Positions 32,683 to 36,319 of a stretch of 64,000 bases of DNA are shown here, piece by piece. A program made the position numbers and the translations under genes. The DNA lies in the NCBI GenBank assembly GCA_023250955.1, contig JAHEZQ010000006.1, positions 248,001 to 312,000 of the forward strand, read 5' to 3'. Source of the stretch: Melioribacter sp. GTDB lineage: Bacteria; Bacteroidota; Ignavibacteria; Ignavibacteriales; Melioribacteraceae. How positions within the stretch are numbered: the first letter of the stretch is position 1; each line of letters starts with the position of its first letter. The notes below the pieces were generated by a model. The model searched no databases and was not told the origin of the DNA. It saw only the letters and a list, made by a program, of their open reading frames with translations.

Positions 32683-33915
32683 TCAAAAATCCTTTTCATC
32701 ATCTTCGAGTTCTAAGTTGGGTATTTGGGTAAATGCAATTCTCATCGGAGCTGAATGTCTTGCATAGTGAGATGTGGCGTAATATGCGGATGTAAATCCA
32801 AATTTTTTATTTAGTCCATCTACAGCTTTGTTAAGAGATTTTATTTTATCATAATCTTCAAAAAAGATTGGTGTGCTCTGATCTTCATCCAGTAACTTAA
32901 ATAGAGTAACTCCAACGGCAAGTGGTTTTTCTTTTCCTGCCGGGTATCTTTCCCAAACTTTCTCCAATGCTTTCATAAGTGTTATAGTATTTTGTGTATG
33001 TGAAAAACTTATTTCTTCTCTCCATTTAGTTCCACCCAAAAATCTTACTCCCATAGACATTGCCCCGGTAGCATATTCAAGATAGCGCATTCTCATTGCC
33101 GCTTTCTGTAACAACCGATTCATCACTGCAAAGGCATCATCTTTATTTCTTTCTTTTGGCGGAAGAACATGGGAGTGACCTATAGTTTGTCGGTGTGTCG
33201 GAGGTCTTTTAACATCTTCGCCACGAAGTTGTGCATATATTCTTTCACCTTCTATTCCTCCCCAAGCTTCTTTTAAACGCGATTTGGGCAAGGTGCAAAG
33301 TGCCTCAACAGTGTAAATTCCATACCGCTTTAAACGAACTTCCATTCTTCTTCCGATACCGGTTAAATCTCTAAGTTTTAGATTGAAAAGACAATGCGGT
33401 AAATCTTTATCTTCGATCACTACTAATCCATCCGGCTTCTGCATATCTGTTGCAGTTTTTGCCAGAAACCTATTAGGGGCCAAACCAATAGAACATTTTA
33501 AATACTCGCCAACTTTTTCCGAAATTGTTTTTTTTATTTGAAGGGCAAGCTCAACGGCATTCTCCCGGATCTTTTGTTTTCCCATAAGCGTGCAGCATAC
33601 TTCATCAATAGACATTTCTTGATCAACATGAACGCACGACTCTATTGCTTCCACTAATTTGTGATGATATTCAATATAAAGTCGGTGATGTGCTTCTACT
33701 AATTTTAGTCCTGGGCAGATTTTTTTTGCATCGGAAACAAGTGTTCCTGTTCTAACACCAAATTTTTTTGCTTCATAACTTGCAGCAATACAGCAAGTAC
33801 TGTCTGCCATCATAGGAACAACTGCGGTTGGTTTATTGCGAAGTTTAGGATTAACCTGCTGTTCAACAGAAGCAAAGTATGAATTGAAATCTAAGAATAA
33901 ATTACGGAGCGGCAT
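32683..33915 (-). CDS. dinB: Y-family (DinB/Pol IV-like) DNA polymerase
   Basis: A 410-aa translesion polymerase homologue. The N-terminal metal motif reads FLDFNSYFASVEQQ, so the first Asp ligand is present; the catalytic Asp-Glu pair is in MSIDEVCCTLMG. The finger/thumb region has CSIGLAPNRFLAKTATDMQKP and a helix-hairpin-helix in LRDLTGIGRRMEVRLKRYGIY. A little-finger domain follows, with no clear C-terminal clamp-binding peptide. The sequence type (DFN rather than DMD, GGTKWREE in the little finger) belongs to a variant group within the Y-family. Its start overlaps the end of a nuclease-like gene by 14 bases, so the two are translated together. Confidence 0.92.
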   Translation of the reverse strand: MPLRNLFLDFNSYFASVEQQVNPKLRNKPTAVVPMMADSTCCIAASYEAKKFGVRTGTLVSDAKKICPGLKLVEAHHRLYIEYHHKLVEAIESCVHVDQEMSIDEVCCTLMGKQKIRENAVELALQIKKTISEKVGEYLKCSIGLAPNRFLAKTATDMQKPDGLVVIEDKDLPHCLFNLKLRDLTGIGRRMEVRLKRYGIYTVEALCTLPKSRLKEAWGGIEGERIYAQLRGEDVKRPPTHRQTIGHSHVLPPKERNKDDAFAVMNRLLQKAAMRMRYLEYATGAMSMGVRFLGGTKWREEISFSHTQNTITLMKALEKVWERYPAGKEKPLAVGVTLFKLLDEDQSTPIFFEDYDKIKSLNKAVDGLNKKFGFTSAYYATSHYARHSAPMRIAFTQIPNLELEDDEKDF

Positions 33916-34519
33916 TTGTATGTTTTTCTGAATAATAAATTCTTGTTGGTGTAATTATGAACACATGTACTAAATTATCTGTTAGATTAAATTCTTTAGC
34001 GATAACAAATTCTTCAAATAACGTAGTCTCGCCAAAGTCTTTATTGATATTAGCCAGAGAATCATCATTTTGATAAAAATAAAGAGCAATACCACAAAAA
34101 TTTAAATCTCCTTTAGTGCTTAGACTCTCTACAAGTTTTTTTATATCGTCTTTGAATTTATTACATCTATCATAAATTTTACTTCCTAGTTTCAGCTCCA
34201 AAGCTACTGTGACTGGTAAATTATAAAAATCAAATCCATTATTTTCTAAATAGACAATATCAAATCGTTTTTTCTTTTTACTAGTCGGGGGATATTCGGC
34301 TTTAATGGGTAGAGAATAAATTGGATTTTTACCTAAATGGTTTTGAAAATCTTTTTTAATTTCAAATTTAACTTTTTCGAAAGATTCTTCAATGAGCTTA
34401 TGAGTTATAAATACTCTCAAATCTTCTTCATAGAAAAAAATAAATGGATTATTATAAAAAGATTTGACTGTATTGAAAATTGCATCCTTAAATTTTTTTA
34501 GAATCTGTTGTCTTTCCAT
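33902..34519 (-). CDS. PD-(D/E)XK nuclease-like protein of unknown role
   Basis: I do not recognise a named family. The product (205 aa from ATG 34519, chosen because AAGGAGG sits 5 bases upstream; the GTG at 34525 overlaps the Shine-Dalgarno) has RFDIVYLENN followed about 15 residues later by VALELKLG. That Asp...Glu-x-Lys arrangement within beta strands is the core of restriction-endonuclease-like folds. Helical segments flank it. It lies 2 bases after the DUF4352 gene and overlaps the Y-family polymerase gene. A role in DNA processing together with the polymerase is a reasonable inference, not shown. Confidence 0.7.
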   Translation of the reverse strand: MERQQILKKFKDAIFNTVKSFYNNPFIFFYEEDLRVFITHKLIEESFEKVKFEIKKDFQNHLGKNPIYSLPIKAEYPPTSKKKKRFDIVYLENNGFDFYNLPVTVALELKLGSKIYDRCNKFKDDIKKLVESLSTKGDLNFCGIALYFYQNDDSLANINKDFGETTLFEEFVIAKEFNLTDNLVHVFIITPTRIYYSEKHTNAAP

Positions 34520-34521
34520 TC

Positions 34522-35460
34522 TCACCTCCTTAAAGATATTTCTTTATACTCATCGCTACCCCATCCTCCCCAAACCTTCAATTTATAATTATCATATGAA
34601 TTTGGTACTTCAAAAGCTACAACAAATTTCTTAGGTATACGTGGTGGTAAATTCTCAAACACTATTGGATTCTTGTTTTCAGTTACTAATACAGCGGCAA
34701 CATTACTTGCAGAACCGTATTCAATTCCGTCACTAGAATAGATTTTAAACATACCATTAGCTATTGTTCTTGTTTCCCGGGATTGATTAATTATAGTTAA
34801 ATATACAATCAAATATACGCCGTCAGCTTGAGCATTTAAATATTGACCACCAACTTGTTTTTTAAATTCAACATCATCTACTCGATATTGAAAATGACCC
34901 AAATTAACAACCGTTCCAATTTTATCGGAAAGTTCAATGTATTTTTGAATTTCTTCATTAAAGACTAGACTTACATTATCTATTTGAAAATAATAATTTT
35001 CAACTATGCTGGGGCAACAATCAGGATCATTCAAACCCCAACGTCTTGCTTTTAAATAAACTTTTCCATCTTTTACATTTTCTAACTGGATTCTAGATAA
35101 GTATCCTGCAAAATTTCTGTAGCCAACAAATGGCTTAACTTTACAATTTACATATCCTGCGTCCCCATTAATCATTACAACAAAGAATTGCAATAAGGGA
35201 TCACGTATTATTTTCTCTGATTGCAAATTAACATTCACAACTAAATCATCTTTATTATCTCCATTAATATCTGCCTTAATTACTTTTTTATCACCAGCAT
35301 ATTTATACACAGGTAATATTTTTCTTCCCTCTTCAATTACAGTCTGAATGATTTCGGCAATTATTTTATCTACCTCATTTTTCTTTCTGGATACCGACTG
35401 TGCCTTAAAATCGACCATATGAATAATTAAAAACAATATAATGATTAGATGCTTTTTCAT
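34522..35460 (-). CDS. Secreted protein with FG-GAP-like segment and DUF4352-like domain
   Basis: A 312-aa protein with a signal peptide (HLIIILFLIIHMVDFKAQ). The N-terminal half has a calcium-loop-type motif, KADINGDNKDDLVV, as in FG-GAP/VCBS-like repeats, within a VCBS-type beta region. The C-terminal half (from about GTVVNLGHFQYRV) resembles DUF4352/telokin-like immunoglobulin-fold domains (VYLIVYLTIINQSRETRTI...MFKIYSSDGIEYG). Probably an envelope or secreted protein of unknown function. Its TGA stop sits inside the Shine-Dalgarno spacer of the next gene, suggesting coupling. Confidence 0.75.
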   Translation of the reverse strand: MKKHLIIILFLIIHMVDFKAQSVSRKKNEVDKIIAEIIQTVIEEGRKILPVYKYAGDKKVIKADINGDNKDDLVVNVNLQSEKIIRDPLLQFFVVMINGDAGYVNCKVKPFVGYRNFAGYLSRIQLENVKDGKVYLKARRWGLNDPDCCPSIVENYYFQIDNVSLVFNEEIQKYIELSDKIGTVVNLGHFQYRVDDVEFKKQVGGQYLNAQADGVYLIVYLTIINQSRETRTIANGMFKIYSSDGIEYGSASNVAAVLVTENKNPIVFENLPPRIPKKFVVAFEVPNSYDNYKLKVWGGWGSDEYKEISLRR

Positions 35461-35500
35461 TTAAACCTCCATAGGACTGACAATAAACACTAATACCTAG

Positions 35501-36319
35501 TTAATTAAATATCACCGCACTTAAATAACCAACAACTTCGGAATTATCGCCGGTAACATCTCCGGAATCGGTACGCGAGAGAATTTTAGATTTATTCTTT
35601 TTTATAAGATCCGCTGTTTTCATCATTGCAACAATAGCTCCGCCGCCGCATGCTTCACATTTTCCGGTTTCTAAATCTTTCTGCAAGTTATCATAATCAA
35701 ATTCTGCTATTCGTTTTTCTACAATGGAATCGAGTTTGTCTGCTTGTTCTTTTGAGTGAAAATGAGAAAGATCCGAACTTGCAACAATTAAAGTTTCGTC
35801 ATCAATAACTTCGGCAAGTTTATTTGCCAGCTCGTCAATAAACATTTTATTCTGATCGCCCATTACAATTGGCACGATAGAAAAATCTTGTAATAACATC
35901 TGAAGAAAAGGAATTTGAACTTCAACAGCATGTTCGGCTCGGTGTCCGTTTATTCCATTAAAAATTATTTTATTATCAAGAATTAATTCATATCTCATTT
36001 CTTTATTTATCGGAACTTCGCCAAGCGGGGTTTTATATGCATCTCCGTTGTAAATAGAAATTCCAGCAAAATATTCACGATGGCTTGGTGAAATAATAAT
36101 TATAGTTTTATAATTTTTTCCCTTAACTGCATTGTAAGCAAACGCCGCCGTTCTTCCTGAATAAGCATATCCTGCATGAGGAGATACAATACCGACAACA
36201 TTTTCAAATTTCTCTCGTGGTTTGTTATCATTCAATAATTGTTGAACTTCATTTTGTAGGTTGGAAGCCGATTCCGGATAAAACATTCCTGCAACTGCCG
36301 GTTCACGAATGTTTTTCAT
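35501..36319 (-). CDS. amrB: AmmeMemoRadiSam system protein B (Memo family)
   Basis: A 272-aa Memo-family protein, related to extradiol-dioxygenase-like folds. Motifs include REPAVAGMFYPESASNLQNEV at the start, VSPHAGYAYSGRTAAFAY, SPSHREYFAGISIYNGD, HRAEHAVEVQIPFLQ and SSDLSHFHSKEQAD. Conserved His (HAGY, SHRE, EHAVE) match the metal-binding positions known in Memo proteins. It overlaps the AMMECR1-like gene by 4 bases (ATGA). The radical SAM member that usually completes this trio is not adjacent. Biochemical role unknown. Confidence 0.94.
   Translation of the reverse strand: MKNIREPAVAGMFYPESASNLQNEVQQLLNDNKPREKFENVVGIVSPHAGYAYSGRTAAFAYNAVKGKNYKTIIIISPSHREYFAGISIYNGDAYKTPLGEVPINKEMRYELILDNKIIFNGINGHRAEHAVEVQIPFLQMLLQDFSIVPIVMGDQNKMFIDELANKLAEVIDDETLIVASSDLSHFHSKEQADKLDSIVEKRIAEFDYDNLQKDLETGKCEACGGGAIVAMMKTADLIKKNKSKILSRTDSGDVTGDNSEVVGYLSAVIFN

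Follow-up and report, generated by a model that had tools for sequence, protein, structure and literature searches.

Nucleases of the PD-(D/E)XK superfamily, which include EcoO109I, NucS/EndoMS, Cdn1/Can2 and the small subunit of R.BspD6I, are built on a core of αβββαβ order, with the aspartate at strand 2 and the ExK motif in strand 3. Y-family polymerases of the Pol IV type (DinB/Dpo4) are characterized by IMS, thumb and C-terminal domains and by a SIDE motif, and in the ImuA-ImuB-DnaE2 mutasome a Y-family-like gene shares its operon with another gene. A further known arrangement is the chromosomal insertion spot with toxin-antitoxin cargo. The locus described here has something of each of these. 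In the window (the whole stretch of 64,000 nucleotides of Melioribacter sp. that was analysed), a gene for a 205-aa protein overlaps a Y-family polymerase gene, and the first-pass annotation had proposed that the two form a repair or damage-tolerance module. We find another reading likely, in which an accessory insertion of ~1.6 kb, consisting of a DUF4352 gene and a stand-alone PD-(D/E)XK-like nuclease gene, lies between a Memo-like gene and the resident polymerase gene, the role of the nuclease being accessory and probably one of defence or conflict. The 205-aa gene belongs to a known superfamily, in which its family is unnamed, and the accessory insertion that contains it is an ordinary one.

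The layout of the locus is given in Table 1. The overlap of 14 bases between the two genes, already reported by the first-pass annotation, is confirmed: the stop codon of the 205-aa gene lies inside the polymerase ORF, and the C-terminal AAP of the 205-aa protein, past the shared ATG bases, is encoded by the polymerase gene's own first bases. An alternative start of the 205-aa gene (GTG at 34525) is found two codons upstream of the ATG, but the AGGAGG ribosome site is placed as expected for the ATG at 34519. The G+C content of the nuclease part is 0.26, the minimum among the 600-base stretches of the window, and that of the polymerase is 0.38.

Table 1. Features of the locus, with positions in the window.
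Feature	Position	Strand	Remarks
Y-family (DinB/Pol IV type) polymerase gene, 410 aa	32683..33915	-	No other IMS-domain gene in the genome; native to this locus within the genus
205-aa PD-(D/E)XK-like protein gene	33902..34519	-	ATG start; predicted active site E31, D87, E108, K110; D33 and E75 also invariant
14-base overlap of the 205-aa gene and the polymerase gene	33902..33915	-	Probable insertion edge; same-genus conservation ends at the polymerase ATG
Inferred inserted segment (DUF4352 gene and 205-aa gene)	33917..35500	-	Missing at the same site in four same-genus genomes
Junction AGGAGGTGAGAATG	34517..34530	-	Ribosome site of the 205-aa gene within the final codons of the DUF4352 gene; stop-to-ATG gap of 2 bases
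312-aa protein gene, likely signal peptide and C-terminal DUF4352 domain	34522..35460	-	Signal peptide judged from sequence
Memo-like gene	35501..36319	-	Conserved; flanks the insertion at the end away from the polymerase

Four genomes of the same genus carry orthologues of the polymerase which adjoin the same Memo gene and are 96, 93, 79 and 78% identical at the protein level (G003, G007, G005 and G010, respectively). In none of the four does the 205-aa gene stand beside the polymerase; it is missing together with the DUF4352 gene, at the same site. In G005 and G007 the Memo-polymerase spacer is empty and measures about 100-130 bases; it contains a YefM antitoxin and YoeB toxin pair in G003, and holds a ParE-type toxin with a small ORF preceding it in G010. 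In this respect the spacer resembles the insertion spots with toxin-antitoxin cargo, but the cargo of the window is different and consists of a secreted DUF4352 protein and a nuclease-like protein. DNA similarity to the relatives sets in again at the ATG of the polymerase and, at the opposite end, close to the stop codon of Memo. Because conservation with the same-genus relatives breaks at the polymerase ATG, the 14-base overlap is best read, on this comparison of sequences, as the edge of the insertion. At the edges of the insertion we found neither a mobility gene nor a target-site repeat or recombination site. The insertion itself is shown by the comparison with the four genomes. We propose that the 205-aa gene, which would encode a stand-alone nuclease of PD-(D/E)XK-like type from a sporadic family, arrived in the spacer with the secreted DUF4352 gene upstream of it, and that its translation would be coupled to that of the DUF4352 gene. 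The overlap with the polymerase would be a by-product of the insertion endpoint and no mark of a shared pathway, and the translation of the polymerase may now be tied to the cassette, in the window strain only. The Memo-polymerase spacer can be described as a small variable spot (window 33917-35500, L004 2765-3267, L007 about 940-1500).

The polymerase itself shows nothing unusual for a Y-family Pol IV enzyme: it shares the IMS, thumb and C-terminal domains, matches Pfam IMS (PF00817) with 125 bits and an E-value of 2.4e-36 for a cut-off of 23.2, keeps the acidic motifs of the family (LDF...SIDE) and has DinB/Dpo4-type enzymes as its PDB relatives. Its best NCBIfam match is of the PRK03103 type and stays below the cut-off of that model. 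A search of the genome gave no second IMS-domain protein, and there is therefore no separate ImuB; of the earlier statement that the proposed module does without the mutasome components, it is the ImuB part only that is borne out. The locus differs from the ImuA-ImuB-DnaE2 mutasome in that the genome has a single IMS-domain gene, whose operon neighbour is nuclease-like and missing in relatives. Within the genus the polymerase is patchy, without a strong orthologue in G001, G002, G004 and G006.

A search for a LexA box upstream of the operon had been suggested as a check, and no convincing one was found. The genome encodes lexA, and the perfect palindrome TAGTGTACGTTTGTACACTA ahead of this gene is a candidate LexA box, but the window contains no match to it within 3 mismatches. 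The core of the palindrome has a two-mismatch match at 33949-33964, which we rejected as a LexA box because it lies within the coding sequence of the nuclease gene and because the genome-wide matches to the short LexA-like form are of chance number (30 vs 30 control matches). Induction by DNA damage cannot be claimed. A scan for sigma-70 promoters reached chance level only. On contig C20 of the same genome (L074), the perfect palindrome TAGTGTAC-GTTT-GTACACTA upstream of the lexA ORF 592-1239 is a candidate LexA box for the lineage.

That the nuclease and the polymerase make up a coupled repair or damage-tolerance module agrees with their overlap on the same strand in a tight operon of the window genome, with the polymerase being the only Y-family enzyme present and with the single weak LexA-like site 33 bases before the polymerase ATG. 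The module is nevertheless very improbable: the LexA-like sites are not above control, the same-genus orthologues of the polymerase occur without the 205-aa gene, and a Y-family polymerase adjoins the homologue gene at 0 of the 12 other loci, within the flanking DNA read, some of the contigs being short. Co-occurrence in relatives was the test that the first-pass annotation had set for its own proposal, and the pair is not conserved, an outcome which goes against the module; on these sequence comparisons the proposal appears largely refuted by the relatives. The coupling that it had noticed is mechanically real as far as the overlap is concerned, but does not stand as a sign of a shared pathway. 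A plausible-looking repair module can thus be struck off, the overlap of two DNA-active genes coming here from insertion and not from a common function.

The accessory reading requires a closer look at the 205-aa protein, in which a restriction-like nuclease core had been recognized from RFDIV (residues 86-90) and VALELKLG (residues 105-112). This part of the annotation is well sustained. Residues E31, D33, E75, D87, I88, E108 and K110 are identical in an alignment of 13 of 13 distinct homologues, and the D...ExK motif is therefore not due to chance. An AlphaFold2 model calculated from the window protein and seven relatives (mean pLDDT 84.3, pTM 0.84) places helices at 31-44 and 119-135 and strands at 72-76, 86-91, 103-112 and 142-149, which corresponds to the αβββαβ order of the superfamily, with the acidic E31 on the first core helix, D87 on the second strand and E108-x-K110 on the third. 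The protein thus very probably has, as judged from the model, a PD-(D/E)XK fold with the full catalytic residue set. Foldseek matches in the PDB are individually weak, with low TM-scores (0.2-0.35); the best of them, EcoO109I (E 1.4e-3, prob 0.72, TM 0.28), is itself weak, and none passes E 0.001. PD-(D/E)XK enzymes nevertheless make up the majority of the 13 best PDB matches, and the top-ranked ones include, in addition to EcoO109I, P. abyssi NucS, Cdn1, HinP1I, R.BspD6I2, CinB and EndoMS. The top match in a viral library is likewise a PD-(D/E)XK nuclease.

Unlike the described members of the superfamily, the 205-aa protein has no significant sequence tie to entries of Pfam, NCBIfam, PADLOC or the PDB, searches of which gave no family, and its short length and the N-terminal motif NPFxYFYEEDxRA are peculiar to it. 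The sole hint from PHROGs was an unnamed family at E 0.0011, and no PADLOC model matched the window protein or any of the five homologues scanned. Fold and catalytic residues are well supported by the model and the alignment, and the protein would act as a cytoplasmic metal-dependent nuclease of DNA (or RNA). One could also think of a PD-(D/E)XK fold devoid of nuclease activity, with a structural or binding role, as the fold matches are weak and the activity is predicted only. We find this hardly credible, for the catalytic positions are all invariant in 13 diverged homologues, unlike those of decayed nucleases.

Homologues of the 205-aa protein are found in 7 of 164 genomes of the order and in 11 of 391 genomes drawn from the class, and in the searches made its relatives were confined to this class (Ignavibacteria-type MAGs and neighbours). 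None appeared in viral contigs or in phage or plasmid records, and a phage or plasmid origin is therefore without support. These homologues define an as yet unnamed family of nuclease-like proteins in this class; its catalytic residues are cleanly conserved, and a secreted DUF4352 protein recurs as its partner. Indeed, the DUF4352 gene is the only partner that is repeated in immediate adjacency among the homologue loci. Genome G705, from a second family of the same order, mirrors the window with a signal-peptide protein carrying a C-terminal DUF4352 domain, a gap of 4 bases and then the nuclease; between the two genomes, identity amounts to 41% for the DUF4352 parts and 38% for the nucleases, which form a pair in the tree (support 0.84). 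Within the order, DUF4352 matches above the cut-off are confined to 13 of the 164 genomes, and for this reason the recurrence of the pair is unlikely to be a matter of chance.

These observations raise the question of whether the DUF4352 protein and the nuclease form a functional two-gene unit that moves as one, such as an envelope component paired with a nuclease effector in the cytoplasm. The two occurrences in different families with conserved DUF4352 domains and gaps of 2 and 4 bases are in agreement with it, as are the ribosome site of the nuclease, which falls within the last part of the DUF4352 gene, and the joint absence of both genes from this site in the sister genomes. We nonetheless hold such a unit to be unlikely, as 11 of the 13 homologue loci have neighbours other than DUF4352, a close DUF4352 relative in G703 lacks an adjoining nuclease, and the N-terminal halves of the DUF4352 proteins of the window and G705 do not align. 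The DUF4352 gene was also considered as an antitoxin and rejected, because its signal peptide would put the product outside the cytoplasm, the compartment in which an antitoxin of the nuclease would be needed. A literature search found no paper treating DUF4352 together with a nuclease.

Some of the remaining homologue loci bear on the role of the nuclease. Conflict-type neighbours are AbiEi/AbiEii, a type IIG restriction enzyme accompanied by a Schlafen-AlbA protein, and an HNH protein, the last of which follows a zinc-ribbon membrane protein in one neighbourhood. Judged from these neighbours, which occur in a minority of loci, the role of the family is most likely defence or genetic conflict; several homologues are located among secreted-protein or housekeeping genes, contrary to this reading. 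Other neighbours comprise an M23 peptidase, a BNR protein, a DnaJ-type zinc membrane protein and an LRR protein. A wider proposal would combine the secreted DUF4352 protein and the cytoplasmic PD-(D/E)XK nuclease in a two-gene unit of conflict or defence that has not been described before, and would see in the nuclease family a common effector with changing partners (DUF4352, LRR, zinc-ribbon membrane proteins, M23 peptidase, type IIG enzyme); it appears to us decidedly unlikely.

The variety of neighbours could also be the work of a small selfish or roaming gene that comes to lie directly after the stop codons of unrelated genes and exploits the transcripts of these, irrespective of what they encode. 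In several loci the gaps to unrelated neighbours are indeed of 2 to 22 bases, including a site with ptsI-like and phosphoglucose-isomerase-like genes. At the window site, however, two genes and not one are missing from the sister genomes, and we consider the roaming gene improbable, while retaining the accessory insertion of both genes. The site just mentioned (L072 3751-7208) has the homologue between a PEP-utilising enzyme gene (ptsI-like) and the phosphoglucose-isomerase-like gene, with gaps of about 5 bases, which suggests an insertion into a housekeeping operon. At L073 (1266-5387) a distant homologue begins 3 bases past the type IIG restriction-methylation gene, and the Schlafen-AlbA gene stands before that enzyme. 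Finally, L020 (1860-4945) and L024 (903-3731) have in common an LRR gene, the nuclease and a WYL regulator in rearranged order; their WYL proteins are 48% identical, and no such LRR and WYL neighbourhood is present at the window.
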